Of a DNA stretch of 64,000 nt, positions 51,360 to 64,000 are shown piece by piece (the first letter of the stretch is position 1; each line of letters starts with the position of its first letter). Source of the DNA: Rhizobium sp. NXC24 (lineage in GTDB: Bacteria > Pseudomonadota > Alphaproteobacteria > Rhizobiales > Rhizobiaceae); assembly GCF_002944315.1 (NCBI RefSeq), contig NZ_CP024314.1, positions 2,108,001-2,172,000 on the forward strand, written 5' to 3'. A program made the translations under genes and the position numbers. The notes under the pieces were generated by a model. It had not been told where the DNA came from. It did no database searches and saw only the letters and a list, made by a program, of their open reading frames with translations.

Positions 51360-51472
51360 TCTTATATCCATCATCATGAATGCCAATTTCCCTTATGTCT
51401 GCATATTTGGCATTACGGAGCAATACGAAACGAGCACGACCTCCAGCAGGCTGCAGTATGAGGAATTTCCGA

Positions 51473-51985
51473 ATGATGAATGCAATTCAATGGCCGGAAG
51501 GCTACCTTCCAGGCTTCACCGAAAACTTCTCCTCCAACGAGGTCATCGCCGCCGATCTTCAGGTTGCTGATGTCTGGCCACAGCTCAGTCAAGCCACGCT
51601 CTGGCCAAGCTACTATCCCAATTCCGCGAATGTCCGCTTCTACGACAGCAAAGGGCCGGAACTGGAAGAAGGCGTGCGCTTTTATTTTGAGACCTTTGGA
51701 TTTCCCGTCGAAGCTGAGGTCGTCGAATACGTGCCTCCAACGAAAGGAAAGCCGGGTCGTGTCGCCTGGCATGGCTGGGCTGGTGAAGGCGAGACCCGTC
51801 TTGACGTTCATCACGCATGGCTGATCGAGGAACTGCCGGGCGGGCGGGTTCGCGTTCTCACCCAGGAGACACAAAAGGGCAAGCCTGCCGAAGATCTGGC
51901 AAAGACCAAGCCCAACCCCATGATCAACGGCCACCAAGACTGGCTGGATGGTTTGATTGCTGCCGCTCGCACGGCCACGAGATAG
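51473..51985 (+). CDS. SRPBCC-fold (START/polyketide-cyclase-like) protein
   Basis: This 170-residue protein has a typical SRPBCC helix-grip layout: an N-terminal strand and helix (SNEVIAADLQVADVWPQLSQ), central strands (GVRFYFETFGFPVEAEVVEY, GRVAWHGWAGEGETRLDV, HHAWLIEEL, GRVRVLTQETQ) and a long C-terminal helix (NGHQDWLDGLIAAA). Proteins of this fold bind hydrophobic ligands; some act as cyclases or hydrolases. The ATG at 51473 follows AGGAA at the right distance. The divergent LysR gene probably controls it. The ligand is unknown. Confidence 0.82.
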   Translation: MMNAIQWPEGYLPGFTENFSSNEVIAADLQVADVWPQLSQATLWPSYYPNSANVRFYDSKGPELEEGVRFYFETFGFPVEAEVVEYVPPTKGKPGRVAWHGWAGEGETRLDVHHAWLIEELPGGRVRVLTQETQKGKPAEDLAKTKPNPMINGHQDWLDGLIAAARTATR

Positions 51986-52330
51986 TGGCAAGACGCGCCT
52001 ATAAGAAGCGAATGCCAAGATCCACCCCCCGCTCGATGGCGCGGATCGATTCATCGTCATCGCTGACGGCCGCCGAGCAACAGGCGGCCGACGTCGACGA
52101 TGCGCTCAAGACCAATCCAAAGTCGCAGCCGCTGACCCAGTAGCCCATCCCGATTTACGTCTTCTGTTACGTCCGCAACGTCCGCGTTTACCGTAACGTA
52201 CTTCCACGGGAACCTTATCGGGAGAAGTGTGGCGTGGTCGAATACGACATCCAGTTTCGGCAGCGCCAGACACTGCCCGACCAAAGGAGACCGTAATGTT
52301 GAACGACCACGACATGGCGAGGAGGACGTG
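51986..52330. promoter_or_regulatory. Upstream region of the sulfatase operon
   Basis: These 345 bases hold a run of TTACGT-like hexamers at 52155, 52167, 52176 (CAACGT) and 52194 (TAACGT). The last lies inside a 19-base motif repeated upstream of the FGE gene. They also hold a short leader frame. A 44-codon frame at 52012-52143 has no ribosome site and no resemblance, so I do not call it. Confidence 0.6.
52187..52205 (+). promoter_or_regulatory. Shared 19-base motif, copy 1 (upstream of the sulfatase)
   Basis: TTTACCGTAACGTACTTCC is identical to the sequence at 60368-60386 upstream of the FGE gene. It contains the small palindrome TTAC-C-GTAA, as expected for a regulator half-site pair or a specialised promoter element. 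It lies 125 bases before the sulfatase ATG and 90 before the leader frame. Confidence 0.7.
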
Positions 52331-52331
52331 A
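52296..52331 (+). CDS. Possible 11-residue leader peptide coupled to the sulfatase
   Basis: The frame MLNDHDMARRT has a strong ribosome site (AAAGGAGA at 52283-52290) and its TGA overlaps the sulfatase ATG by one base. Its two tandem AGG arginine codons are also the AGGAGG ribosome site of the sulfatase, so passage of a ribosome through the leader would directly affect sulfatase initiation. Translation is not proven. Confidence 0.45.
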   Translation: MLNDHDMARRT

Positions 52332-53965
52332 TGAACACGGCCTTCTCTCGACGCCTCCTCGGTGCCACCGCGGCTCTCGCTATAACGCTCGGCGCAATTT
52401 CGCTTGCGTCATTCCCGGTCCATGCACAGCAGGCTGCACCGTCTGCAACAACGCCGGCGACGGACAATGCCGGCTCGAAGCCCAACATTCTCGTCATCTT
52501 CGGCGACGATATCGGCCAGACGAACATCAGCGCCTATTCCTTTGGCGTCATGGGCTACCGGACGCCGAACATCGACCGCCTCGCCAAGGAAGGGACGATG
52601 TTTACGGACTACTACGCCGAAAACAGTTGCACGGCAGGGCGCTCGACCTTCATCACCGGTCAGGTCTGCCTGCGCACCGGCCTTTGCAAGGTTGGTATCC
52701 CGGGCGCAACGGTCGGCCTCCAGCCCCGCGATATCACGATCGCACAAGCCCTGAAGCCGCTCGGCTATGCAACGGGCCAGTTCGGCAAGAACCATCTCGG
52801 CGATCGGGACGAATTCCTACCGACCAACCACGGGTTCGACGAGTTCTATGGCAATCTTTACCATCTCAATGCCGAGGAGGAGCCGGAACGGCCCTACTAT
52901 CCGAAAGATGACCAGGAATTCGTCCGCACGAACTCTCCGCGCGGCGTTCTCAAGGCGTCATCGGACGGCAAGATCGAAGACACTGGCGCTTTGAACCGGA
53001 AACGCATGGAGACGGTCGATGACGAAACGACGGCCGCCGCCATCGATTTCATGCAAAGGAAGGCAAAGGAGGGTAAGCCCTTCTTCACCTGGATGAACAC
53101 GACCCGAATGCATGCTTTCACCCACGTCCGGCAATCCATGCAGGGCCAAAGCGGCATGCCCGGCAACGACTATGCCGACGGTATGATCGAGCACGACGGC
53201 GACGTCGGCAAACTGCTGAAAGCACTGGACGATCTCAACATCGCCGACAATACGATCGTGCTATACACGACCGACAACGGCCCGAACCAATGGTCATGGC
53301 CGGATGCCGCAACGACGCCGTTCCGAAGTGAAAAGGATACAAACTGGGAAGGCGCTTTCCGGGTACCCGCGATCATCCGTTGGCCCGGCCATGTAAAGGC
53401 GGGTGAAACATCCAATGAGATGGTATCCGGACTTGACTGGTTCCCGACGTTGCTCGCGGCTGCCGGCGACCCCGACATCAAGGACCGCCTTCTCAAGGGA
53501 ACGGCGATTAGCGGCAACCAGTTCAAGGTCCATCTCGACGGCTATAATCAGCTTCCATATCTGACAGGGCAACAGCCGAAATCGGCCCGTACCGAATTCT
53601 TCTACTTCGATGACGACGGCCAGCTTGTCGCCTATCGCTTCGGCGACTGGAAGCTCGTCTTCTGCGAACAGCGTCAGCCGGGCGGTTTTCAGGTTTGGGC
53701 CAATCCGTTCACATGCCTTCGCGCTCCGAAGACCTTCAATCTTCGAATGGACCCTTATGAGCGGGCGGATATCGTTTCCGACCAGTATTATGACTGGTAC
53801 GCAAAGAACGCCTATCTCGTGCAGTATGGCGTCTGGCGGGTGGCTCCATTCCTGCAAACTTTCCGCGAGTATCCGCCCAGCCAGCGGCCGGCCAGCTTCA
53901 GCGTGGACCAGATGATCGACGCACTGATGAAATCGCTGGAACAAAGTCCGGCGACAGCCAAGTAG
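52331..53965 (+). CDS. Exported type I sulfatase (arylsulfatase)
   Basis: This 544-residue protein has a twin-arginine-like leader (FSRRLLGATAALAITLGA, cut near VHAQQA) and the alkaline-phosphatase-type sulfatase fold. Metal ligands lie in LVIFGDDIGQTN. Cys100 in SCTAGRSTFITG is the residue converted to formylglycine in this C-x-x-x-R motif. Other active-site parts are GQFGKNHLGD, TRMHAF and YTTDNGPN. It should hydrolyse sulfate esters in the periplasm, releasing sulfate. Tat export would fit modification of Cys100 in the cytosol by the FGE encoded at 60436. Its substrate is unknown. AGGAGG precedes the ATG. Confidence 0.93.
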   Translation: MNTAFSRRLLGATAALAITLGAISLASFPVHAQQAAPSATTPATDNAGSKPNILVIFGDDIGQTNISAYSFGVMGYRTPNIDRLAKEGTMFTDYYAENSCTAGRSTFITGQVCLRTGLCKVGIPGATVGLQPRDITIAQALKPLGYATGQFGKNHLGDRDEFLPTNHGFDEFYGNLYHLNAEEEPERPYYPKDDQEFVRTNSPRGVLKASSDGKIEDTGALNRKRMETVDDETTAAAIDFMQRKAKEGKPFFTWMNTTRMHAFTHVRQSMQGQSGMPGNDYADGMIEHDGDVGKLLKALDDLNIADNTIVLYTTDNGPNQWSWPDAATTPFRSEKDTNWEGAFRVPAIIRWPGHVKAGETSNEMVSGLDWFPTLLAAAGDPDIKDRLLKGTAISGNQFKVHLDGYNQLPYLTGQQPKSARTEFFYFDDDGQLVAYRFGDWKLVFCEQRQPGGFQVWANPFTCLRAPKTFNLRMDPYERADIVSDQYYDWYAKNAYLVQYGVWRVAPFLQTFREYPPSQRPASFSVDQMIDALMKSLEQSPATAK

Positions 53966-54032
53966 TTCGGCGAACCCCATCGACGGGCGTGGCCTGAAGG
54001 CCTCGCCCGCTTCCAATATGGACGGGACGAGC

Positions 54033-55010
54033 ATGACCGCACGTGACGACATTATCGCGCTGAGCGCACGGATTGGCCGTTCGATCATCGGCCAGGAGGC
54101 GATGGTCGAGCGGCTTCTCCTTGGGCTGCTCGCCAATGGCCATCTTCTGGTCGAGGGCCTGCCGGGGTTGGCGAAGACGCGCGCCATCAAGAGCCTGGCG
54201 AGGAATCTCGACGCCGAGCTCTCGCGCATCCAGTTCACACCGGACCTGCTGCCGGCCGATATCACCGGCTCGGAGATCTATTTCAGCGAGGGCGGCAGGG
54301 GCGAGTTCAAGTTTCAGCAGGGACCGATTTTCGCCAGCCTGATCCTCGCCGACGAGATTAATCGCGCGCCCGCAAAGGTGCAGTCGGCCTTGCTGGAAGC
54401 GATGGAGGAGCGGCAGGTAACCGTCGGGGGCAAGAGCTATCCTCTGCCCGCGCTTTTCATGGTGATGGCGACGCAGAATCCGATCGAGCAGGAGGGTACC
54501 TATCCCCTCCCCGAAGCGCAGCTCGACCGCTTCCTGATGCATGTGGAGGTCGGCTATCCCAACGAAACATCCGAAGGAGCAATCATGCGGCTCAATCGCG
54601 ATGAGGAAAAAGAAGCACATGGAGAGGGCAAGGCCACGCCGCAGCAAAGGCTTGATCCGCAAGCAATATTCGAGGCACGCAAGGAGATAGGAGCGGTTGC
54701 CGTCTCCGATCCCATAGAGAAATACATCGTCGCTTTGGTCTTCGCCACGCGATACCCCGACAGATATGACAAGGACCTCGCCAAATTGCTGCAGGTCGGT
54801 GTCAGCCCGCGCGGCGTCATCGGTCTCGACAAAGTTTCCCGCTCCTATGCCTGGCTGAGGGGTCGCGACTATGTCATCCCCGACGACGTCAAGGCTGTTG
54901 TCAGCGACGTTTTCCGCCATCGCCTGATCCTCTCCTACGAGGCTCATGCCTCCAACACCGCGCCAGATCAGGTCATCGACCGCATCGTCGAACTCGTGGC
55001 GGTTTCATGA
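54033..55010 (+). CDS. MoxR-family AAA+ ATPase
   Basis: This 325-residue protein has Walker A GLPGLAKT (residues 42-49), Walker B LILADEINRAP, sensor-1 region MVMATQNPIEQEG and the C-terminal lid (GVSPRGVIGLDKVSRSYAWL). MoxR proteins are chaperone-like ATPases that work with VWA-domain partners, here encoded just downstream. I chose the ATG at 54033, with a GGACGGG stretch upstream; an ATG five codons earlier is equally open. It follows the sulfatase stop by 67 bases, so it is probably in the same operon. Confidence 0.94.
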   Translation: MTARDDIIALSARIGRSIIGQEAMVERLLLGLLANGHLLVEGLPGLAKTRAIKSLARNLDAELSRIQFTPDLLPADITGSEIYFSEGGRGEFKFQQGPIFASLILADEINRAPAKVQSALLEAMEERQVTVGGKSYPLPALFMVMATQNPIEQEGTYPLPEAQLDRFLMHVEVGYPNETSEGAIMRLNRDEEKEAHGEGKATPQQRLDPQAIFEARKEIGAVAVSDPIEKYIVALVFATRYPDRYDKDLAKLLQVGVSPRGVIGLDKVSRSYAWLRGRDYVIPDDVKAVVSDVFRHRLILSYEAHASNTAPDQVIDRIVELVAVS

Positions 55011-55019
55011 GGAACGGCC

Positions 55020-55970
55020 ATGGCTCGCAACGAAGGCAGCACAGGCGTCCATGTCAGCACCGAGCAGCTCGTCGCTCTCGAGCGCCAGGCTCGCGACCTG
55101 ACCTTCGTCCAAAAGGCGCGGAGCCATCGTCAACTTTCCGGCCGGATGCGCTCGTCGATGCGTGGCCGGGGCCTGAGTTTTGAGGAACTGCGCGACTATC
55201 TGCCGGGGGACGACATCCGCACAATCGACTGGCGGGTCACGGCACGCACCAGCAGGCCGGCAGTCCGCGTCTACACGGAAGAGAAGGAACGGCCAGCGCT
55301 GATCGTCGTCGACCAGCGCATCAACATGTTCTTCGGCAGCCGACGGTCGATGAAATCGGTGACCGCAGCGGAGGCGGCCATGCTCTGCGCCTGGCGGATT
55401 CTCGGCTCCGGCGACCGGGTCGGCGGCTTCGTGTTCAACGACAGCGAGATTGTCGAGCTCAGGCCGCACCGCAGCCGGGAAGCCGTCATGGGCCTTGCCG
55501 ACAGGATTGCCCGCCAGAATACAGGGTTGAGCGCTGCCTATGCCGGAACGCCCGGTCTCGCCGCGCTCGACGCCGTTGCTGCCCGCGTCGCGAACATCGC
55601 TCATCATGATCATCTCGTCGTCTTCATCAGCGACTTCGATGGTCATACGGCGGCGACACGCAACACGCTGCTGCGCCTCTCGGCACATAACGACGTGATC
55701 TGCCTCCTCGTTTACGATCCCTTCCTTCTGCAGTTGCCGCAATCGGGCAACATCGTGATCAGCGGGGGCAGTCTTCAGGCAGAACTGATGCTCAGACAAG
55801 GCGACGTCCGGCAAGCGATCGATCGCTTCGCACGTGAGCGCGGCCGGGAACTACGGTCCTGGCAACGAGAGCTTGGCCTTCCAATGCTGCCGATTTCAAC
55901 CGCGGAAGAAACCGCGCCGCAGCTCCGCCGCCTGCTGGAGCAATCCGCCTGGCGGCAACGGAGGCGATGA
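55020..55970 (+). CDS. DUF58 protein of the MoxR/VWA module
   Basis: This 316-residue protein has the DUF58 signature LRDYLPGDDIRTIDWRVTAR followed by VRVYTEEKERPALIVVDQRI, and a VWA-like remainder (DRVGGFVFNDSEIVEL, HDHLVVFISDFDG). DUF58 proteins usually follow moxR and form part of the membrane-associated complex. GAGGA precedes the ATG; the stop overlaps the next gene by 4 bases. Confidence 0.93.
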   Translation: MARNEGSTGVHVSTEQLVALERQARDLTFVQKARSHRQLSGRMRSSMRGRGLSFEELRDYLPGDDIRTIDWRVTARTSRPAVRVYTEEKERPALIVVDQRINMFFGSRRSMKSVTAAEAAMLCAWRILGSGDRVGGFVFNDSEIVELRPHRSREAVMGLADRIARQNTGLSAAYAGTPGLAALDAVAARVANIAHHDHLVVFISDFDGHTAATRNTLLRLSAHNDVICLLVYDPFLLQLPQSGNIVISGGSLQAELMLRQGDVRQAIDRFARERGRELRSWQRELGLPMLPISTAEETAPQLRRLLEQSAWRQRRR

Positions 55971-56488
55971 CCATGGGACCAGCCACTCCGACGACCGATC
56001 CGATGACCGAGATCGCCCTGCGATCCCTCAGGGACATCGCCGTGCCACCGCCGGTCTCGTGGATGCCGCAGACCTGGGGATGGGCCGTATTGGCGGCAAT
56101 TCTCCTTGTCGTTCTCTTGGTCGTCTTTCTGCGCTGGCTGAAGGCCTATCGCGCAAACGCCTATCGACGCGAGGCGCTCGCCCAACTCGCCGAGATTGAA
56201 GAGAAAATCCGCGATCCGGTCGCGCGAGGAGACGGGCTGCGCGAACTCGCCGCCCTTCTGAAGCGCGTCATGCTGGCCGGCTGGGGCCGGCCGGCCGTGG
56301 CAGAGATCGCCGGCGCGGCCTGGGTTCGCTTCCTGAGCGAACATGGCGACGAGAAAGCGAGTACCGCCCTGGAAAGACTGCTCGACGATCTTGAATACCA
56401 CGGCAATGCAGAGCCGCCGCCGGATGTCGTCGACCAAGCGGTCCCGGCCGCACGAAGCTGGATCGGACACCATCATGTATCAGCTTGA
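55967..56488 (+). CDS. DUF4381 single-pass membrane protein
   Basis: This 173-residue protein begins with a short proline-rich segment (LRDIAVPPPVSWMPQT). One membrane helix follows (WAVLAAILLVVLLVVFLRWL), then a cytosolic helical domain (YRREALAQLAEIEEKI, LAALLKRVMLAGWGRPAV). Length and layout are typical of DUF4381 in MoxR/Bat operons, where it is thought to be a structural partner. It overlaps both neighbours (4 and 14 bases), consistent with tight coupling. Confidence 0.9.
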   Translation: MTMGPATPTTDPMTEIALRSLRDIAVPPPVSWMPQTWGWAVLAAILLVVLLVVFLRWLKAYRANAYRREALAQLAEIEEKIRDPVARGDGLRELAALLKRVMLAGWGRPAVAEIAGAAWVRFLSEHGDEKASTALERLLDDLEYHGNAEPPPDVVDQAVPAARSWIGHHHVSA

Positions 56489-57464
56489 CCATCCATGGCT
56501 GCTGTTTCTTCTTCCCGTGCCGCTGTTCGTCTGGTGGCTTCTTCCAGCGCATCGGCAAACGTCGGAGGCCGTTCGCATCCCCTTCTTCGAGCAGGTTGCA
56601 GACGCCGCCGGCATCCGTCCGACGGAAGGTTCGGTCATCCCGCGCCGGACTTGGCTACAGTTGATCGTCGAGACGCTCGCTTGGTGCCTGATGCTGCTCG
56701 CCCTCGCGCGTCCGCAATTCGTCGAGCCGCCGATCGAGAAGGTCGAGCCGCAGCGAGACATCATGCTCGCACTCGACCTATCGCAGTCGATGGATACGAA
56801 GGATTTCCACGCCGCGGACGGAAGCACTGAGGCACGCGTCGATGCCGTTAAGAAGGTCGTCTCCGATTTCGTATCGAAGCGACCCGGCGACAGGATCGGC
56901 CTCGTCGCCTTCGGCGATGCGCCATATCCGCTGGTCCCCTTTACCATGGACCATGCCACCTTGCAGAAGATGATCGCCGAGATCGTGCCTGGCATCGCAG
57001 GTCCCCGCACGTCGCTCGGCGACGCAATAGGGCTGGCGATCAAGATGTTCGAAAAGACGACCGTTCCGGAGAAGGAATTGATACTGCTGACCGACGGCAA
57101 CGACACCGCCAGCAAGATGCCGCCTGCCAAGGCTGCCGGAATCGCCAAGACCAAGGGGATCGTTGTTCATACCGTCGGAATCGGTGATCCGGCGGCGACC
57201 GGCGAGGACAAGCTCGATACGGAAATGCTTCGAAAGATCGCCACAGGCACCGGTGGGCGCTACTTCTTTGGCGAAGATCAAACTGCGCTCGCCGCCATCT
57301 ACGACGTGCTCGATCGGATCACGCCGGTGAACCAGAAGACGCTCTCCTGGCAACCGCGCATAGAACTCTTCTATTGGCCTCTTGGTGCATCGATCGCGCT
57401 CATCGTGGTCTATTACGGACTGTGCGGCATCCGCAGCCTCCTGCATAGAGAGGTGGCGGCATGA
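56475..57464 (+). CDS. VWA-domain membrane protein (BatA-like)
   Basis: This 329-residue protein has two N-terminal membrane helices (PWLLFLLPVPLFVWWLLP and LIVETLAWCLMLLAL). A von Willebrand A domain with a complete metal-ion site follows (ALDLSQSMDTKDF, RTSLGDAIGLAI, ILLTDGND), then a C-terminal helix (YWPLGASIALIVVYYGLCG). This is the layout of BatA from the Bacteroides aerotolerance operon. The start at 56475 lies inside the previous gene; a longer upstream frame is in the wrong context. Confidence 0.93.
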   Translation: MYQLDHPWLLFLLPVPLFVWWLLPAHRQTSEAVRIPFFEQVADAAGIRPTEGSVIPRRTWLQLIVETLAWCLMLLALARPQFVEPPIEKVEPQRDIMLALDLSQSMDTKDFHAADGSTEARVDAVKKVVSDFVSKRPGDRIGLVAFGDAPYPLVPFTMDHATLQKMIAEIVPGIAGPRTSLGDAIGLAIKMFEKTTVPEKELILLTDGNDTASKMPPAKAAGIAKTKGIVVHTVGIGDPAATGEDKLDTEMLRKIATGTGGRYFFGEDQTALAAIYDVLDRITPVNQKTLSWQPRIELFYWPLGASIALIVVYYGLCGIRSLLHREVAA

Positions 57465-59017
57465 TAGAGGACTTCCATTTCCTGCGTCCATGGTGGCTGC
57501 TGGCGCTTGCGCTTCCGGTCGCGTTGCTCTGGCTGTCCTCCCGCTCCGGCGATGCCCGCAACCGATGGAAAGGGATCATCGCGCCGCACCTGCTCGACAG
57601 CCTCGTCGTCAGGGGAAGCGGCGGCTCCCGGTTCCGACCTTCCTGGCTCCTTGCCGCCGCGATGGCGGCGGCAGCGATCGCGACATCAGGACCAACCTGG
57701 GAGCGGGAGGTTCCACCGTTCGTCGAAAATACGGCGCCACTCGTCATCGCCGTCGATCTGTCGGTGACGATGAATGCGATCGACGTTACGCCTTCGCGGC
57801 TTGAGCGCACCAAGCTGAAAATCAGGGATGTCATCGCGGAGCGGCAAGGTGCGAGGACGGCTGTCGTCGCTTATGCGGGAACGGCGCATCTCGTCCTTCC
57901 TTTCACAGAGGACGCCTCTCTCACCGAAACCTACACGGATGCCCTGGCGACGCGCATCATGCCCGTCCCCGGCAAGGATTCGACCAGGCCGCTCCAGCTT
58001 GCCGAAGAGCTCCTCTCGAAGGAGGAGACGACCGGCACGATCCTGTTCATGACAGACGGTATCGAGGAGAGAGCATTTGAAGCTTTCAAGCGCGGAGCGG
58101 GCAGCAGCATTGTCGTACTCGGCGTCGGCACGGCAGCAGGCGGTCCCGTCAAGACACCGGACGGTGGCTTCGAGACGGATGCGGGCGGCGGACGCATCTT
58201 CGCCAAGCTCGATATCGAGGGTCTGAAGCGCCTGCATACGCAGACGGGCACGGAGGTCGCGACGATCACCGACGACGACACGGACGTGCGCTGGATAATG
58301 CAGCGCATCCGGACGAATTTCGAACAGAAGCAGGCTAAGGAAGGCGATCGCTGGCGCGATATGGGATGGTGGGCGGTCATCCCCCTCGTCATTCTCTACG
58401 CGGCGTCGTTCCGGCGCGGCTGGGTCGTACGCCTTGCCGGCATCGTTCTTGCTGCGAGAATGGTGATGCCCACCGAGGTCGATGCCGGCAGCCTTGCGGA
58501 CATGTGGTTGACATCAGACCAGCAGGGTCGGCTTGCCTACGAGCACAGCGATTATGCAGCGGCATCGGCGCATTTTCTCGATCCGATGTGGGAGGGCGCC
58601 GCGCTCTATCGCGCCGGCAAATACGCGGAAGCCGTCGACGCCTTCGCCGCCGTCGACACTGCGGAGAGCTGGTATGATCAGGGAAACGCGCTGCTTCACC
58701 TGGAAAGGTTCGACGAGGCGGTCGCTGCTTACAAGAGGGCGCTGGATGGGCGAAAGGGCTGGCCGGACGCGCAGGCGAATCTCGCAATCGCCGAAGCGCT
58801 GCTAAAGGCGAAACAGGAGAAGGAACAGGACGAGCAAGGGGAACCGAACGAGAAACCCGATCAGGTGCAATTCGACGACAAGGGCAAACAGGGCAAGCAA
58901 GGAAGGATCGACATCGCCGAACAAACGTCGGAGATGTGGATGAAGAATATCCAGGTGAGCCCGGCGGATCTCATGGCACGGAAGTTCTCCCTCGAAACGC
59001 GGGAGAAGACGCCATGA
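57461..59017 (+). CDS. VWA-TPR membrane protein (BatB-BatC fusion type)
   Basis: This 518-residue protein has N-terminal helices (WWLLALALPVALLWLS), a VWA domain whose metal site reads DLSVT rather than the canonical DxSxS, with FMTDGIEE later, and a membrane helix near 305-330. TPR repeats follow (residues ~355-450; AGKYAEAVDAFAAVDTAESW, LHLERFDEAVAAYKRALDG), then a highly charged tail (KQEKEQDEQGEPNEK). It combines BatB- and BatC-like parts in one chain. Four-base overlaps link it to both neighbours. Confidence 0.9.
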   Translation: MIEDFHFLRPWWLLALALPVALLWLSSRSGDARNRWKGIIAPHLLDSLVVRGSGGSRFRPSWLLAAAMAAAAIATSGPTWEREVPPFVENTAPLVIAVDLSVTMNAIDVTPSRLERTKLKIRDVIAERQGARTAVVAYAGTAHLVLPFTEDASLTETYTDALATRIMPVPGKDSTRPLQLAEELLSKEETTGTILFMTDGIEERAFEAFKRGAGSSIVVLGVGTAAGGPVKTPDGGFETDAGGGRIFAKLDIEGLKRLHTQTGTEVATITDDDTDVRWIMQRIRTNFEQKQAKEGDRWRDMGWWAVIPLVILYAASFRRGWVVRLAGIVLAARMVMPTEVDAGSLADMWLTSDQQGRLAYEHSDYAAASAHFLDPMWEGAALYRAGKYAEAVDAFAAVDTAESWYDQGNALLHLERFDEAVAAYKRALDGRKGWPDAQANLAIAEALLKAKQEKEQDEQGEPNEKPDQVQFDDKGKQGKQGRIDIAEQTSEMWMKNIQVSPADLMARKFSLETREKTP

Positions 59018-60351
59018 GATCGGCAGCCATGGGCCTTGCCCTCTCTCTGTTGGCCGCCACTTCCTGCTTGGCGGCGGAACCTTTCGCCCGTGCAAGCGTC
59101 GATGACGACGGTCAGATCGTGCCTGGCCAGCAGGTGCACGTCATCGTCGACGTCTTCGTTCCGGATTTCTTTACCTCGCCTCCTCAGTTCCCGCTGTTCG
59201 ACCTTCCCAACGCCGTCGTCACGCTCGCGAACGAGCGCCCGCAAAATCTGCTGCAGACCATCGATGGCGTTCAATATTCCGGAATTCGCAGGACCTATGC
59301 CGTCGTTCCGGAGGTATCGGGAACGTTCACCCTGCCGTCGGTGCCGATCGAGCTCGGCTATTCGGAAGACGGGAGACGGGTCAAGGGAACGGTGCAACTT
59401 CCATCCATCGGCTTCAATGTCATCGGTTCGGCATCCGGACAACGGACACCGGTCTTCGCCGCCCGCCAGATCGCGCTCACCCAGTCCTTCGACCGGAATC
59501 CCTCACAGCTCAAGGTCGGCGATGCGGTCGTGCGGACCGTGACCGTCTTCGGCGAGGATACACAGGCCATGATGATACCGCAGGTCGTCATCGGCGAGGC
59601 TGCCGGTCTCAGGCAATATCAAAAGCCACCGCAGATCGCGGATAACATCGTGAGCGGAAATACGACGGGAAGCAGGCGTATAGAGACCATCGTCTACACG
59701 GCGGACAAGGCCGGCACCTTCCGCATCCCCGCGATTTCCTATCCATGGTTCGATGTCGACGCGCATCAGGCCAGGACCGCCACGTTACCGACTGTGGCCG
59801 TCACCGTCATCGATGCTCCGGCATCGTCCGACATCATCGCGCCCGAGCTTCGGCAGGAGACGGCGCCGAGCCGTTCCCGAACCCTGACGGCCGCAGCGCT
59901 GGCCTCGGGCTGCGCTCTTTGCGTTGCCGTCCTATGGGCGGGTCGGCGCTTCCTGCCACGGTTTTCAAACGGAATGCGAGCCTGGCGTCGCCCGCGCCCA
60001 AACTCGGAACACGTGGAATTCAAGCGGCTGATGAACTCAATCGCCGGTGATGAAGAGAGTGCCGTCTATCAGGCTTTGATGCGCTGGACACGAGTGGTCG
60101 GCTATTCCTCGATTTCGACATGGATGACCGCCTCGTCCGATCCCGACTTGGGATCGCAGATAGAGGCCATAGAAAAAGCCCTCTTCGGTTCCGGAACCGA
60201 TGGCGCTCCATTCGACCGGCAGGCGTTGGCGGATGCTGTTCGCAGGTCGCACATCGCAAAACCTGCTCCAGGCAGCTTGCGGGGCGGTGCCCTGCCACCG
60301 CTCAATCCAGGCGCGGCTTCGCCCACTTCCGTAAATTTACGCCGGTGGTAA
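59014..60351 (+). CDS. BatD-like protein
   Basis: This 445-residue protein has a signal peptide (GLALSLLAATSCLAAEPFA). A long extracytoplasmic part made of beta-sandwich repeats follows (IVPGQQVHVIVDVFVPD, GTFTLPSVPIELGYSEDGR, VGDAVVRTVTVFGEDTQAM). A single membrane helix near residue 300 (LTAAALASGCALCVAVLWAG) and a cytosolic tail complete it. This matches the oxygen-tolerance BatD family. The ATG at 59014 overlaps the upstream stop (ATGA). Confidence 0.87.
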   Translation: MRSAAMGLALSLLAATSCLAAEPFARASVDDDGQIVPGQQVHVIVDVFVPDFFTSPPQFPLFDLPNAVVTLANERPQNLLQTIDGVQYSGIRRTYAVVPEVSGTFTLPSVPIELGYSEDGRRVKGTVQLPSIGFNVIGSASGQRTPVFAARQIALTQSFDRNPSQLKVGDAVVRTVTVFGEDTQAMMIPQVVIGEAAGLRQYQKPPQIADNIVSGNTTGSRRIETIVYTADKAGTFRIPAISYPWFDVDAHQARTATLPTVAVTVIDAPASSDIIAPELRQETAPSRSRTLTAAALASGCALCVAVLWAGRRFLPRFSNGMRAWRRPRPNSEHVEFKRLMNSIAGDEESAVYQALMRWTRVVGYSSISTWMTASSDPDLGSQIEAIEKALFGSGTDGAPFDRQALADAVRRSHIAKPAPGSLRGGALPPLNPGAASPTSVNLRRW

Positions 60352-60367
60352 CATTTGCCGCCGGGCA

Positions 60368-60386
60368 TTTACCGTAACGTACTTCC
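60368..60386 (+). promoter_or_regulatory. Shared 19-base motif, copy 2 (upstream of the FGE gene)
   Basis: This copy of TTTACCGTAACGTACTTCC starts 17 bases after the BatD-like stop and ends 49 bases before the FGE ATG. It marks a likely internal promoter or operator, so that FGE and the HAD phosphatase could be expressed together with the sulfatase independently of the Bat genes. Confidence 0.7.
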
Positions 60387-60435
60387 GAACAGCCGCATCG
60401 AAGGCAAAGCTGTTCTTTCAATTTCGGAGGCAAGG

Positions 60436-61401
60436 ATGGCTTTGGCATTCGAAAACGAGCGGACAGCGGACGGCGGCCCCGAGGGCATGGTCTGGATCCC
60501 CGGCAGGACCTTCACGATGGGATCGGACAACCACTATCCGGAGGAGGCCCCTACCCATCCGGTAAGGGTCGACGGCTTCTGGATCGAGGAAACGCCGGTG
60601 ACGAACCGGAAGTTCGTGGCATTCGTCGACGCCACCGGCTACGTGACTTTCGCCGAGAAGGCTCCCGATCCCAAAGACTATCCGGGCGCACGCCCCGAAA
60701 TGCTGAAGGCAGGATCGCTCGTCTTCTTCCAGCCGAAGAATGTTGCTGGCCCGGACATAACGCAGTGGTGGAAATTCAAGTTCGGCGCGAACTGGCGCCG
60801 TCCGCTCGGCGGACTGAGTGACCTGCGTGGAAAGCTGGACCATCCTGTTGTCCATATCGCCTGGTGCGATGCCAAGGCCTATGCGGACTGGGCGGGCCTC
60901 AATTTGCCGACCGAGGCGGAGTGGGAACTTGCCGCCCGCGGTGGCCTGGACGACGCCGAATTCGCCTGGGGGGATGAACTCATGCCCGACGGTCGCCCGA
61001 TGGCCAATACGTGGCAGGGAACATTTCCGACGCTCAGCACCAAGCCTGCGGGAAAAGAACGGACCTCGCCCGTGCGCTCTTTCCCACCGAACGGCTACGG
61101 CCTTTACGACATGATCGGCAATGTGTGGGAGTGGACCTCCGATTATTGGTCAGCACGGCACACCGAACCTGCCGCCAAATCCTGCTGCATCCCGAGCAAT
61201 CCCCACGGCGGACCGGCAGATGCGAGCTACGACCCCATGCAACCACAAATCCGCATCCCGCGGAGGGTGCTGAAGGGCGGCTCGCATCTCTGCGCCCCGA
61301 ACTATTGCCGTCGTTATCGCCCGGCCGCCCGCCATGCCGAGCCGGAGGATACGTCCACAAGCCATGTCGGCTTCCGCTGCGTGAAAAGAACGACCGCGTG
61401 A
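60436..61401 (+). CDS. Formylglycine-generating enzyme (sulfatase-modifying factor)
   Basis: This 321-residue protein matches the FGE/SUMF1 family: EGMVWIPGRTFTMGSDNHYPEEAP at the start (read in two parts, EGMVWIPGRTF and MGSDNHYPEEAP), then GFWIEETPVTNRKF, LPTEAEWELAARGG and NVWEWTSDYW. The late LCAPNYCRRYR carries the catalytic Cys286 and Cys291 in C-x4-C spacing. FGE oxidises the sulfatase-motif cysteine to formylglycine with copper and oxygen. It has no signal peptide, so modification should take place in the cytosol before Tat export of the sulfatase at 52331. GGAGG lies just before the ATG at 60436. Confidence 0.94.
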   Translation: MALAFENERTADGGPEGMVWIPGRTFTMGSDNHYPEEAPTHPVRVDGFWIEETPVTNRKFVAFVDATGYVTFAEKAPDPKDYPGARPEMLKAGSLVFFQPKNVAGPDITQWWKFKFGANWRRPLGGLSDLRGKLDHPVVHIAWCDAKAYADWAGLNLPTEAEWELAARGGLDDAEFAWGDELMPDGRPMANTWQGTFPTLSTKPAGKERTSPVRSFPPNGYGLYDMIGNVWEWTSDYWSARHTEPAAKSCCIPSNPHGGPADASYDPMQPQIRIPRRVLKGGSHLCAPNYCRRYRPAARHAEPEDTSTSHVGFRCVKRTTA

Positions 61402-61414
61402 CAGGAGATATCCG

Positions 61415-62425
61415 ATGAGACCGATCCGGAACACCGAAACGATCCTCGCCTCGCTGATTGTTGCCGTGTTTACGCTGGCGGCGGGCTTCGTCAGTCCCGC
61501 CTTCTCGCAGGAGCCGCTGCCGTCATGGAACGACACGGCCGCGAAGAGCCACATCATGGCCTTTGTCAAGGCAACGGTGACGGATGGCGGCGAAGGCTAC
61601 GTCGCGCCTGAAGATCGCATCGCAGTCTTCGACAATGACGGCACGCTCTGGTCCGAACAGCCCTATTACGTCCAACTCGGCTTCATGCTGGACCGGGTGA
61701 AGACATTGGCGCCGCAACACCCGGAATGGAAGGAGAAGGAACCGTTCAAATCCATCCTTGCCGGCGATCTGAAAGGGATCGCAAAGAGCGGCGAGAAGGG
61801 CATCGTCGAACTCGGCATGGCAACGCATGCCGGAATGACGACTGACCAGTTCGCCTCGATCGTCACGGACTGGTTCGCAACGGCAAAACATCCGAAGACG
61901 GGCAAGCCGTATACGGAGATGACGTATCTGCCGATGCGCGAACTGCTCGACTATCTGCGCGCCAACGGCTTCAAGACCTACATCGTCTCCGGCGGCGGCG
62001 TGGAGTTCATGCGGCCGATTACGGAAAAGGCCTATGGCATCCCGCCGGAACAGGTGGTGGGAAGCACAATCACCACCGAATTTGCGATCGTCGACGACGT
62101 ACCTGTCCTGAACCGTCTACCGGAAATCGACTTCATCGACGATGGCCCTGGCAAGCCTGCCGGTATCAACAAGTTCATCGGGCGCAAGCCGATCTTCGTT
62201 GCAGGCAATTCCGACGGCGATTACGAGATGATGCGGTGGACGACCGCGGCGAAGAGCCCGGGCTTTGCGATGCTGATCCACCATACGGACGGCGATCGCG
62301 AATATGCCTACGACCGCCAGTCCGCGTTTGGGAAGCTGGACAAGGCGCTCGACGAAGCCGGACGCCGCAACTGGCTGGTCGTTGACATGAAGAATGACTG
62401 GAAGAAGATCTTCGCTTTCGAATAG
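61415..62425 (+). CDS. Exported HAD-family phosphatase
   Basis: This 336-residue protein has a signal peptide (LIVAVFTLAAGFVSPAFSQ) and the HAD motifs: FDNDGTLW (nucleophile and acid aspartates), VSGGG, a lysine in the following region, and AGNSDGDYEM. The cap region lies between residues ~70 and 170. It looks like a periplasmic phosphoserine-phosphatase-type enzyme and starts 13 bases after the FGE gene. Its link with the sulfatase is by context only; it may dephosphorylate the same compound or serve a separate scavenging step. Confidence 0.88.
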   Translation: MRPIRNTETILASLIVAVFTLAAGFVSPAFSQEPLPSWNDTAAKSHIMAFVKATVTDGGEGYVAPEDRIAVFDNDGTLWSEQPYYVQLGFMLDRVKTLAPQHPEWKEKEPFKSILAGDLKGIAKSGEKGIVELGMATHAGMTTDQFASIVTDWFATAKHPKTGKPYTEMTYLPMRELLDYLRANGFKTYIVSGGGVEFMRPITEKAYGIPPEQVVGSTITTEFAIVDDVPVLNRLPEIDFIDDGPGKPAGINKFIGRKPIFVAGNSDGDYEMMRWTTAAKSPGFAMLIHHTDGDREYAYDRQSAFGKLDKALDEAGRRNWLVVDMKNDWKKIFAFE

Positions 62426-62674: not shown

Positions 62675-64000
62675 CTAGGATGCGCTGGCAAGCCGGTCGG
62701 CGGCTTTGAAGTCCGCACCGGCCTTCGTCAGGCCGTCCTTGAGCTTTGCAGTAATGGACGGGTGATAATGTCTCTGCTCCATTCTTTGATGAAACAGGCG
62801 AATGAAATCCGGATCCTGATTCTGCATGGCTGCGAGCCGCGGGGCAGCCTGGCTCGATCCGAGCTGAGCCAGTGCGGCGATCCTCAGCACCTTCAGCACA
62901 TAGTCGCCGCGATGCACCTGCTCGGCCAGCAACGAGGCCTCGGACCAGTCGGACCTGCGATAGGCGTCGAGAGCGAGAACGATAACCGCATCGCCTGGCA
63001 CGGCGTCGACATTGCGCCCGGCATCCCGTGCCAGCGAGACGCCTGCGTCGAAATAGCCGGAGGCAAAAAGAACCGTGGCGAGCGTTGCGCCAACATCCGG
63101 ATTGTTCGGATTGAGGGACATGGCCCTGTTGCCTGTGTCTATTGCTGCCGTGTTCCAGCCCGCGGCAAACTGCGTCATCATCAGGGCGACTTGCGCCCGG
63201 TCGGAACGCGGCGCAAGCGATACGGAGCGGCTTGCGAGTTTATAGGATCTGGCGAGCGTCGCCTGGTCGATCACACCCTCTTCTCCTGTCAGCAGCGCCC
63301 TTGCGAGCGTTGCGCCGGCGTCTGCATCGTCCGGACTTTTCGCTATTGTCCGCTCCAGACAGTTCATCGATCTCGCAATCACCGCTGAGTCTCGGTCCTC
63401 GAGCGCGCGCTCTGCGCGGAGCACGCAAGCGTTTCCAAGCGAACCTGCAGCGCTTCCATAGGTCTCCGCGTTATTGATCACGCTATCGCTCGAGGCAAAC
63501 CTTCGGGCTAGAGACGCCGCGAGATTCATGCTAACGGCCGCGGGGCTCTTGCCTGCCGTATCCTCCCTTTCGACCCCGGACCGAAGCACTTCGCCGGTCG
63601 CGAGGTTCGCTATCTGCCACCAGATGCTTCTATCGTTCCCATCGCCATAATACTTCATCTCGATCCGATAGGTGTTTGCGTCGGAAGAACGGTGGGCCGC
63701 AAACTGCAGTCTGTCCGGGGGCAAAGCCTCGGTGACAGTCAGCGTCCGAAACTGGGTCAGGGCGGTCAGCAGCATCTCACGCGTCGCGTTTGCCTCTCCG
63801 CTCCATGCGGCGTCGGCAGCCACCATCTCGACCGAGACCGCCGGGCGGACAGTGATTGCCGGAGCAATCTCAGACATTCCCCACATGAGCGCCGTCCCCA
63901 TGCCAAGGACTGCCGCAATCGCTGCCCATGCCTGCCACCCTGCAACCGGAGAACGTTTCGAACGCGAAGTTTGGAGGGGGCCGATGTATTCCTCCAGCTC
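62675..64000 (-). CDS. Membrane-anchored protein with TPR-like repeats, 5' end beyond the window
   Basis: The frame is open from the right edge to a stop at 62675 (442 codons visible). The first visible residues (ELEEYIGPLQTSRSKRSPVAG) precede a membrane helix (WAAIAAVLGMGTALMWG). A ~150-residue beta/alpha domain follows (YRIEMKYYGDGNDRSIWWQIANL), then TPR-like helices (TIAKSPDDADAGATLARALL, LASRSVSLAPRSDRAQVALM, NRAMSLNPNNPDVGATLATV). This layout, cytosolic N-terminus, one helix, repeats outside, is typical of CadC-like winged-helix regulators or membrane cyclases. The N-terminal domain that would decide lies outside the window. An internal Met at 63901 is unlikely to be the true start. Confidence 0.7.
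   Translation of the reverse strand, partial: ELEEYIGPLQTSRSKRSPVAGWQAWAAIAAVLGMGTALMWGMSEIAPAITVRPAVSVEMVAADAAWSGEANATREMLLTALTQFRTLTVTEALPPDRLQFAAHRSSDANTYRIEMKYYGDGNDRSIWWQIANLATGEVLRSGVEREDTAGKSPAAVSMNLAASLARRFASSDSVINNAETYGSAAGSLGNACVLRAERALEDRDSAVIARSMNCLERTIAKSPDDADAGATLARALLTGEEGVIDQATLARSYKLASRSVSLAPRSDRAQVALMMTQFAAGWNTAAIDTGNRAMSLNPNNPDVGATLATVLFASGYFDAGVSLARDAGRNVDAVPGDAVIVLALDAYRRSDWSEASLLAEQVHRGDYVLKVLRIAALAQLGSSQAAPRLAAMQNQDPDFIRLFHQRMEQRHYHPSITAKLKDGLTKAGADFKAADRLASAS

Follow-up and report, generated by a model that had tools for sequence, protein, structure and literature searches.

Why should a six-gene MoxR/VWA module stand between the gene of an exported sulfatase and that of the sulfatase-activating enzyme? 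The question is raised by a stretch of 64,000 nucleotides from Rhizobium sp. NXC24 (contig NZ_CP024314.1, positions 2,108,001 to 2,172,000; hereafter the window, whose own numbering is used below), where a sulfatase, a MoxR-DUF58-DUF4381-VWA-VWA/TPR-BatD module, a formylglycine-generating enzyme (FGE) and a HAD-family phosphatase are encoded in succession on the + strand. MoxR/VWA/Bat modules are widespread and few of them have a known client. Our analysis suggests, at a probability of roughly 0.58, that the six genes encode a dedicated MoxR/VWA machine, driven by ATP, for the maturation of exported sulfatases activated by FGE, in which it would load Ca2+ and close the active site. The computation demonstrates a dedicated clade of such modules, their co-occurrence with sulfatases, a shared DNA element and a resemblance to the Mxa maturation proteins of methanol dehydrogenase. 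The clade points to a client that is specific and measurable.

The association was examined at 98 loci picked from lists of DUF4381 matches, blind to their neighbours. These include 18 of the family list's 19 non-window rows; the remaining picks are parts of other lists, mostly strong matches, and for one list they come from among the matches listed. Nine loci without the MoxR, DUF58 and VWA set were dropped, and the other 89 were placed with the window on trees built with FastTree and repeated with IQ-TREE. In both trees 37 loci and the window compose one side of a single branch (clade A; Shimodaira-Hasegawa-like approximate likelihood ratio test 100 in IQ-TREE). A sulfatase is found within the fetched flanks of 35 of these 37 loci and of none of the 52 other modules, the flanks having mean totals of 10.7 kb and 9.7 kb, respectively. 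HAD genes follow the same division (22/37 vs 0/52), as do FGE genes (14/37 vs 1/52). Clade A spans 16 families: 13 of its loci are from the window's family, 15 from other families in the same order, 2 from the same class outside that order and 7 from the same phylum outside that class. Among the 35 nearest sulfatases, 26 are upstream and 4 downstream on the strand of the module, and 3 are upstream and 2 downstream on the opposite strand. Rhizobium rhizogenes pC5.7b retains the gene order of the window, and on pSymA of Sinorhizobium meliloti ABS7 and pSMED01 of S. medicae WSM419 a CTAGR sulfatase lies downstream of the module on the opposite strand. The Cupriavidus metallidurans CH34 stretch contains a VWA gene, FGE and HAD and gives no sulfatase or DUF58 match; a MoxR match follows the first VWA gene at a distance of about 7.5 kb.

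The same linkage is seen at the level of whole genomes. In a presence/absence profile of 151 genomes of the window's family, where a window-like sulfatase was defined by at least 545 bits, all 14 genomes with a clade-A module hold such a sulfatase. The other 130 genomes, which lack a sulfatase at this limit, include none with a clade-A module, one of them (G115) having a single unclassified, sub-threshold DUF4381 match. The 545-bit limit was fixed after inspection of the list; when all 26 genomes at E <= 1e-60 are taken, the module is present in 14 of them. Among eight detached modules that were fetched, six adjoin a sulfatase.

A further tie, absent from the original prediction, is a 19-nt putative regulatory element, TTTACCGTAACGTACTTCC. 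It occurs on the + strand at 52187..52205, 126 bp before the sulfatase start, and again at 60368..60386, 50 bp before the FGE ATG and within the 84-base gap that follows BatD. With up to 3 mismatches allowed, these two are the only matches in the window, and 100 shuffles gave 0. The exact 13-nt core has 3 copies in the 7.3-Mb genome, the third, in front of an MscS channel gene (L234:4033-5991), being located 965 bp beyond the window; a fourth site with 2 mismatches, also past the window end, precedes a small gene. Throughout the 190 loci analysed, the same tolerance yields 90 sites in 32 loci. In those 32 loci, the element lies upstream of the predicted starts of 17 of 26 sulfatase and 19 of 26 FGE genes, 5 of 19 MoxR genes (L026, L096, L190, L191 and L193) and 1 of 19 HAD genes, and of none of the 95 DUF58, DUF4381, VWA1, VWA2 and BatD genes. 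Before FGE, 13 of the 19 sites are placed at 50-53 bp, and in the stand-alone modules L190 and L193 the element is 73 and 68 bp before MoxR. It also precedes 7 of 11 genes of a DUF481-like outer-membrane protein and 3 of 4 MscS genes. In 80 loci selected by similarity to the window FGE, and therefore biased towards FGE, the real core has 68 sites in 21 loci, and 12 shuffled cores have 0-5 sites. We infer that regulation runs through this element. The original prediction had described a single rightward run of genes. The order and strand stand; since an element copy occupies the 84-base gap, however, FGE and HAD probably form a second transcription unit.

These data bear on two readings in which the sulfatase is no client at all. 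Related genomes keep common neighbourhoods by descent, and the genes might be mere co-inherited neighbours without functional linkage. This idea is already disfavoured and hardly credible, since gene orders and strands are rearranged, the element is common even to detached modules, and no module outside clade A has a sulfatase nearby. The concern that the arrangement might be restricted to close relatives has likewise been answered: in 15 of the 16 families with clade-A modules, these occur together with a sulfatase or FGE, with changed order and strand, the shared element and matching presence and absence. Alternatively, the module might be an envelope-stress system, co-induced with the sulfatase to protect the cell surface during sulfate-ester processing and leaving the enzyme itself untouched. 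Generic Bat modules are discussed as stress systems in a passage of PMC3557215, and the element also stands before the MscS channel gene and the outer-membrane barrel gene. We nevertheless consider this unlikely, since the association is confined to one clade and one enzyme class, the Mxa kit works on a client enzyme, and the part of the Leptospira paper that bears on it gave no support for a protective role of Bat.

Would FGE, rather than the sulfatase, be the protein on which the module acts? It could load copper into FGE or stabilise it; FGE requires copper, as stated in part of PMC4505483, and its gene carries the element too. This seems very improbable when FGE is near 14 of 37 modules and the sulfatase near 35. 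Besides, FGE has no signal-like segment, in contrast to the hydrophobic segments of the VWA and BatD proteins, and 63 of the 80 FGE-selected stretches, some of them short, are without the module. The 17 FGE-selected loci with a module belong to Rhizobium, Aureimonas, Brucella, Neorhizobium, Bradyrhizobium, Bosea, Reyranella, Camelimonas and other Rhizobiales. An FGE-like match in L175 was rejected as a relative, having no phmmer similarity to the window FGE. The original prediction let the module mature, insert or protect either the sulfatase or its FGE; the maturation role fits the resemblance to Mxa, and it is the FGE half that is weak, with FGE disfavoured as main client. PF03781 has a single match in the genome, the window FGE at 60436..61401. 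Twelve PF00884 match rows were found there, and of the other sulfatases inspected five have a Cys-type motif; therefore, this FGE probably serves several sulfatases and is not dedicated to one.

The sulfatases themselves share an active-site class. The motif was readable in 34 of the 35 nearest clade-A enzymes and is C-x-A-x-R in all of them (32 CTAGR, 1 CTAAR and 1 CDAGR). In a sulfatase tree, the module-linked enzymes fall in several subfamilies, intermixed with enzymes that lack a neighbouring module, and the closely related modules of L092, L094 and L097 adjoin sulfatases of different subfamilies. Since the linked enzymes span subfamilies even beside closely related modules, the module seems to be specific for the CTAGR class, not for one orthologue. 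Their N-termini have the look of export signals, of mixed types: 13 of the 35 match a loose twin-arginine pattern, and most others look Sec-like or lipoprotein-like by eye. Twin-arginine (Tat) export, which had been proposed as the common setting, is thus rejected as a common denominator.

Other families also recur beside the module, so that the sulfatase may not be its sole client. The module might serve several adjoining exported metallo- or cofactor enzymes, with the sulfatase being one among them. A multiheme cytochrome c with TPR repeats occurs in 10 of 37 clade-A loci vs none of 52 others, HAD in 22 of 37 and a PF01663 phosphodiesterase in 5 of 37; yet each of these candidates is found in fewer loci than the sulfatase, and we give this alternative only a small chance. 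The cytochrome gene is exemplified by L098:3258-5645, which has eight CxxCH motifs, and nine other clade-A loci carry it. The PF01663 phosphodiesterase/nucleotide pyrophosphatase, scanned in L118, is near or inside the modules of L102, L104, L118, L121 and L138, and in the first two it sits between MoxR and DUF58. A fusion of MFS-like and spermidine-synthase-like parts is repeatedly encoded next to clade-A modules, and also at two FGE-selected loci (L090, L169, L174, L183, L184, L186, L048 and L068).

What might a MoxR/VWA machine do to a sulfatase? The Mxa kit offers the closest guide. We located an Mxa cluster in locus L226 by its content and order, the gene names being assigned in this analysis, and compared profiles with hhalign in two versions, one from all modules, with clade A mixed with the others, and a weaker repeat from clade A only. 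In this order, the two versions gave 99.9% and 99.9% for MoxR with MxaR, 98.9% and 98.6% for VWA1 with MxaC, 97.4% and 92.6% for VWA1 with MxaL, and 96.8% and 96.0% for VWA2 with MxaC. No unexpected pair exceeded 16% in the clade-A-only comparison, where the VWA proteins match both MxaC and MxaL. Like the Mxa genes, the module adjoins an exported Ca-binding enzyme; unlike them, it sits with a sulfatase and FGE instead of MxaF, its TPR part is fused to the second VWA protein, and it has no match to MxaD. MoxR and MoxC/L are described as inserting calcium in a passage of PMC12657314, and FGly (formylglycine) sulfatases as calcium-dependent in part of PMC5066984. Ca2+ loading or folding after export would be the most economical job for the module.

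A possible sequence of events can be outlined. While the sulfatase is still unfolded in the cytoplasm, FGE would convert its active-site Cys; export would follow. A membrane complex of the VWA, VWA/TPR, BatD and DUF4381 proteins, powered by MoxR and DUF58 on the cytoplasmic side, would make physical contact with the enzyme and remodel it, so that it takes up its catalytic Ca2+ and the active site closes, a role like the one attributed to the Mxa maturation proteins towards methanol dehydrogenase. Hydropathy and charge suggest a periplasmic VWA domain for VWA1 and a cytoplasmic position for MoxR and DUF58. In the window's relatives, module, sulfatase and FGE would be induced jointly through the shared element. 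More tentatively, and at less than even odds, we propose that formation of FGly is not the last step: a dedicated MoxR/VWA insertase, co-regulated with FGE via a cluster-specific operator, would load Ca2+, and sulfatases would be a new class of MoxR/VWA client. If so, sulfatase maturation would continue after FGE with an energy-dependent second stage, knowledge of which would help sulfatase engineering and the study of organic sulfur use in soil and symbiosis. The candidate clients can be assayed by simple colorimetry in tractable hosts such as Sinorhizobium meliloti, where pSymA has the module beside an arylsulfatase.

Several observations weigh against a dedicated sulfatase machine. Seven of the 21 family genomes with a window-like sulfatase have no clade-A module, one of them (G128) from the window's own genus. 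Among 26 genomes whose FGE locus has no adjacent module, there are 18 in which no VWA match anywhere exceeded 115 bits, and the other 8 have a VWA gene of at least 320 bits elsewhere; four control genomes with an adjacent module were all recovered by this search, and the L014 genome gave no match in it. The module tracks the sulfatase, yet with such genomes in both sets the sulfatase does not always depend on the module. Conversely, the modules of L190 and L193 have no adjacent sulfatase, the clade-A locus L095 has only FGE and HAD, and L182, the sole clade-A locus of its family, has its nearest sulfatase about 82 kb away. The element is found in just 3 of the 98 DUF4381-selected loci, so that most clade-A members beyond the window's relatives must be under other regulation. 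In VWA2 of clade-A loci, the D.S.[ST] form of the metal ion-dependent adhesion site (MIDAS), as given by the pattern used, appears in 10 of 40. The likeness to Mxa is also uneven. DUF4381 has no Mxa counterpart, and for four pairs the all-module percentage drops when clade A is used alone: 78.7% to 52.7% for VWA2 with MxaL, 59.3% to 35.8% for the VWA2 TPR tail with MxaK, 95.2% to 47.4% for DUF58 with MxaS (38.7% with a smaller alignment) and 76.6% to 32.3% for BatD with MxaA (14.6% with a smaller alignment). Homology to MxaR and MxaC is thus clear, and the MxaS, MxaL, MxaA and MxaK pairs, weak though they rank highest, are suggestive. The connection of the module to Ca2+ is drawn by analogy.

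Comparison with other known systems helps to place the module. Its gene content equals that of Bat or MoxR-BatABD modules, and DUF4381 is present in generic sampled modules as well; the 52 others are nevertheless split from clade A with full support and have no sulfatase nearby. CoxD is a name belonging to the Cox MoxR-VWA metal-insertion system. In the NorQ/NorD and Cox pairs, a MoxR ATPase and a VWA partner act on one metalloenzyme, and the parts of PMC13036017 and PMC9976466 that describe them, on which this comparison is based, name no DUF58, DUF4381 or BatD. Generic modules beside pyrroloquinoline quinone (PQQ) dehydrogenases were set aside as support for the metal idea, since none of the 89 tree loci gave a PQQ dehydrogenase match (with a profile partly from antisense frames, used for location only). 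Such arrangements do exist outside the tree: the generic MoxR/VWA modules of L215 and L220 are divergent from adjoining PQQ alcohol dehydrogenases, and in G774, one of seven g112 genomes, a generic module lies beside a PQQ dehydrogenase by coordinates. With respect to known sulfatase activation, the window FGE is typical and has both cysteines. In the open-licence literature, subscription journals being mostly outside the scope, among the matches listed we found no ATPase partner for sulfatase maturation and recognised no link between a MoxR/VWA module and a sulfatase. Part of PMC7159879 places MoxR alongside FGE in conflict systems, and PMC4053727 discusses Sinorhizobium arylsulfatases, its text being without the words 'ATPase' and 'von Willebrand'. 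An anti-phage system was considered and rejected, since MoxR, DUF58, both VWA proteins, BatD and FGE had no PADLOC match.

The nine genes were all found as intact open frames on the + strand at the positions that the original prediction had given, and its motifs, overlaps of 4-14 bases and gaps of 9-84 bases were confirmed. The exported sulfatase (52331..53965; PF00884, 4.4e-48) has the CTAGR motif with Cys100, and its FGDD and TTDNG Ca-ligand segments are present by alignment to arylsulfatase A and 7aj0, the ligand positions being taken from part of PMC5066984. A gap of 52 bases separates it from the MoxR AAA+ ATPase of clade A (54018..55010; PF07726, 5.6e-63), with Walker A GLPGLAKT and Walker B LILADE, whose only paralogue in a genome search is 44% identical. 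After 9 bases follow DUF58 (55020..55970; PF01882, 1.5e-33), whose best Mxa match is MxaS, the DUF4381 membrane protein (55967..56488; PF14316, 8.2e-34), with one hydrophobic segment at residues 40-58, and the BatA/MxaC-like VWA1 (56475..57464; PF00092, 2.8e-21), with three hydrophobic segments and MIDAS DLSQS. Then come the BatB+BatC-like VWA2 (57461..59017; PF13519 and TPR), with MIDAS DLSVT, and BatD (59014..60351; PF13584, 8.6e-12), which has an N-terminal signal-like segment and internal hydrophobic segments and matches MxaA best in the Mxa set. From DUF58 to BatD successive genes overlap by 4, 14, 4 and 4 bases, the best BatD start being the ATG at 59014. For FGE, 84 bases further on, the ATG at 60436 is the preferred start; PF03781 scored 3.1e-79 on the longer version that begins with a TTG at 60355. 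Its Cys286 and Cys291 (313 and 318 from TTG) lie in a C....C stretch that aligns to solved FGE chains, including 1y1e. The HAD phosphatase (61415..62425; PF12710) begins 13 bases after FGE and has an N-terminal signal-like segment; 4ovy is the sole solved relative found (1.4e-120). Across clade-A loci, the MIDAS pattern is seen in 36 of 36 VWA1 proteins, and when cut or split frames are included the FGE cysteines are found in 9 of 14 and the Walker motifs in 32 and 34 of 38.

A 2.26-Mb replicon of Rhizobium sp. CB3060 matches the stretch at 100% identity. Counts of sigma-70 promoters and terminators do not differ from those in shuffles. Directly before the sulfatase, at 51380-51985, is a weakly SRPBCC-like gene (PF10604, E 0.0023, below the cut-off). 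The MxaD-like gene of L226 also belongs to PF10604, a likeness that is probably a coincidence.

Beyond the HAD gene, a candidate membrane regulator is encoded on the - strand, its C-terminal part at 62675..64000 and the gene running past the window end (L234 1676-3601). It has a conserved N-terminal region, a transmembrane (TM) helix and a TPR domain. The AlphaFold model of a relative from L009 has a mean predicted local distance difference test score (pLDDT) of 77.8, a helix at 161-185 and helical repeats after 290, and Foldseek places the CadC periplasmic domain among its matches (E 2e-5, mostly via the TPR part). The model suggests that a TM helix and a following TPR-type domain are common to CadC and the candidate; the N-terminal region has no Pfam match and mixed model confidence, and was barely covered by the fold search. 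Over the 190 loci, element and regulator gene are both present in 20, the element alone in 12, the gene alone in 6 and neither in 152, and none of the 22 regulator genes in the 32 element-bearing loci has the element directly upstream. That the candidate binds the element is a guess. Of the 90 element sites, 38 do not precede any of the genes counted above, and several of these precede a small protein of about 99 residues and then the candidate regulator. This conserved protein, encoded at L234:3549-3902 (- strand) between element and regulator, is also found in 14 genome-contig loci and in L095.

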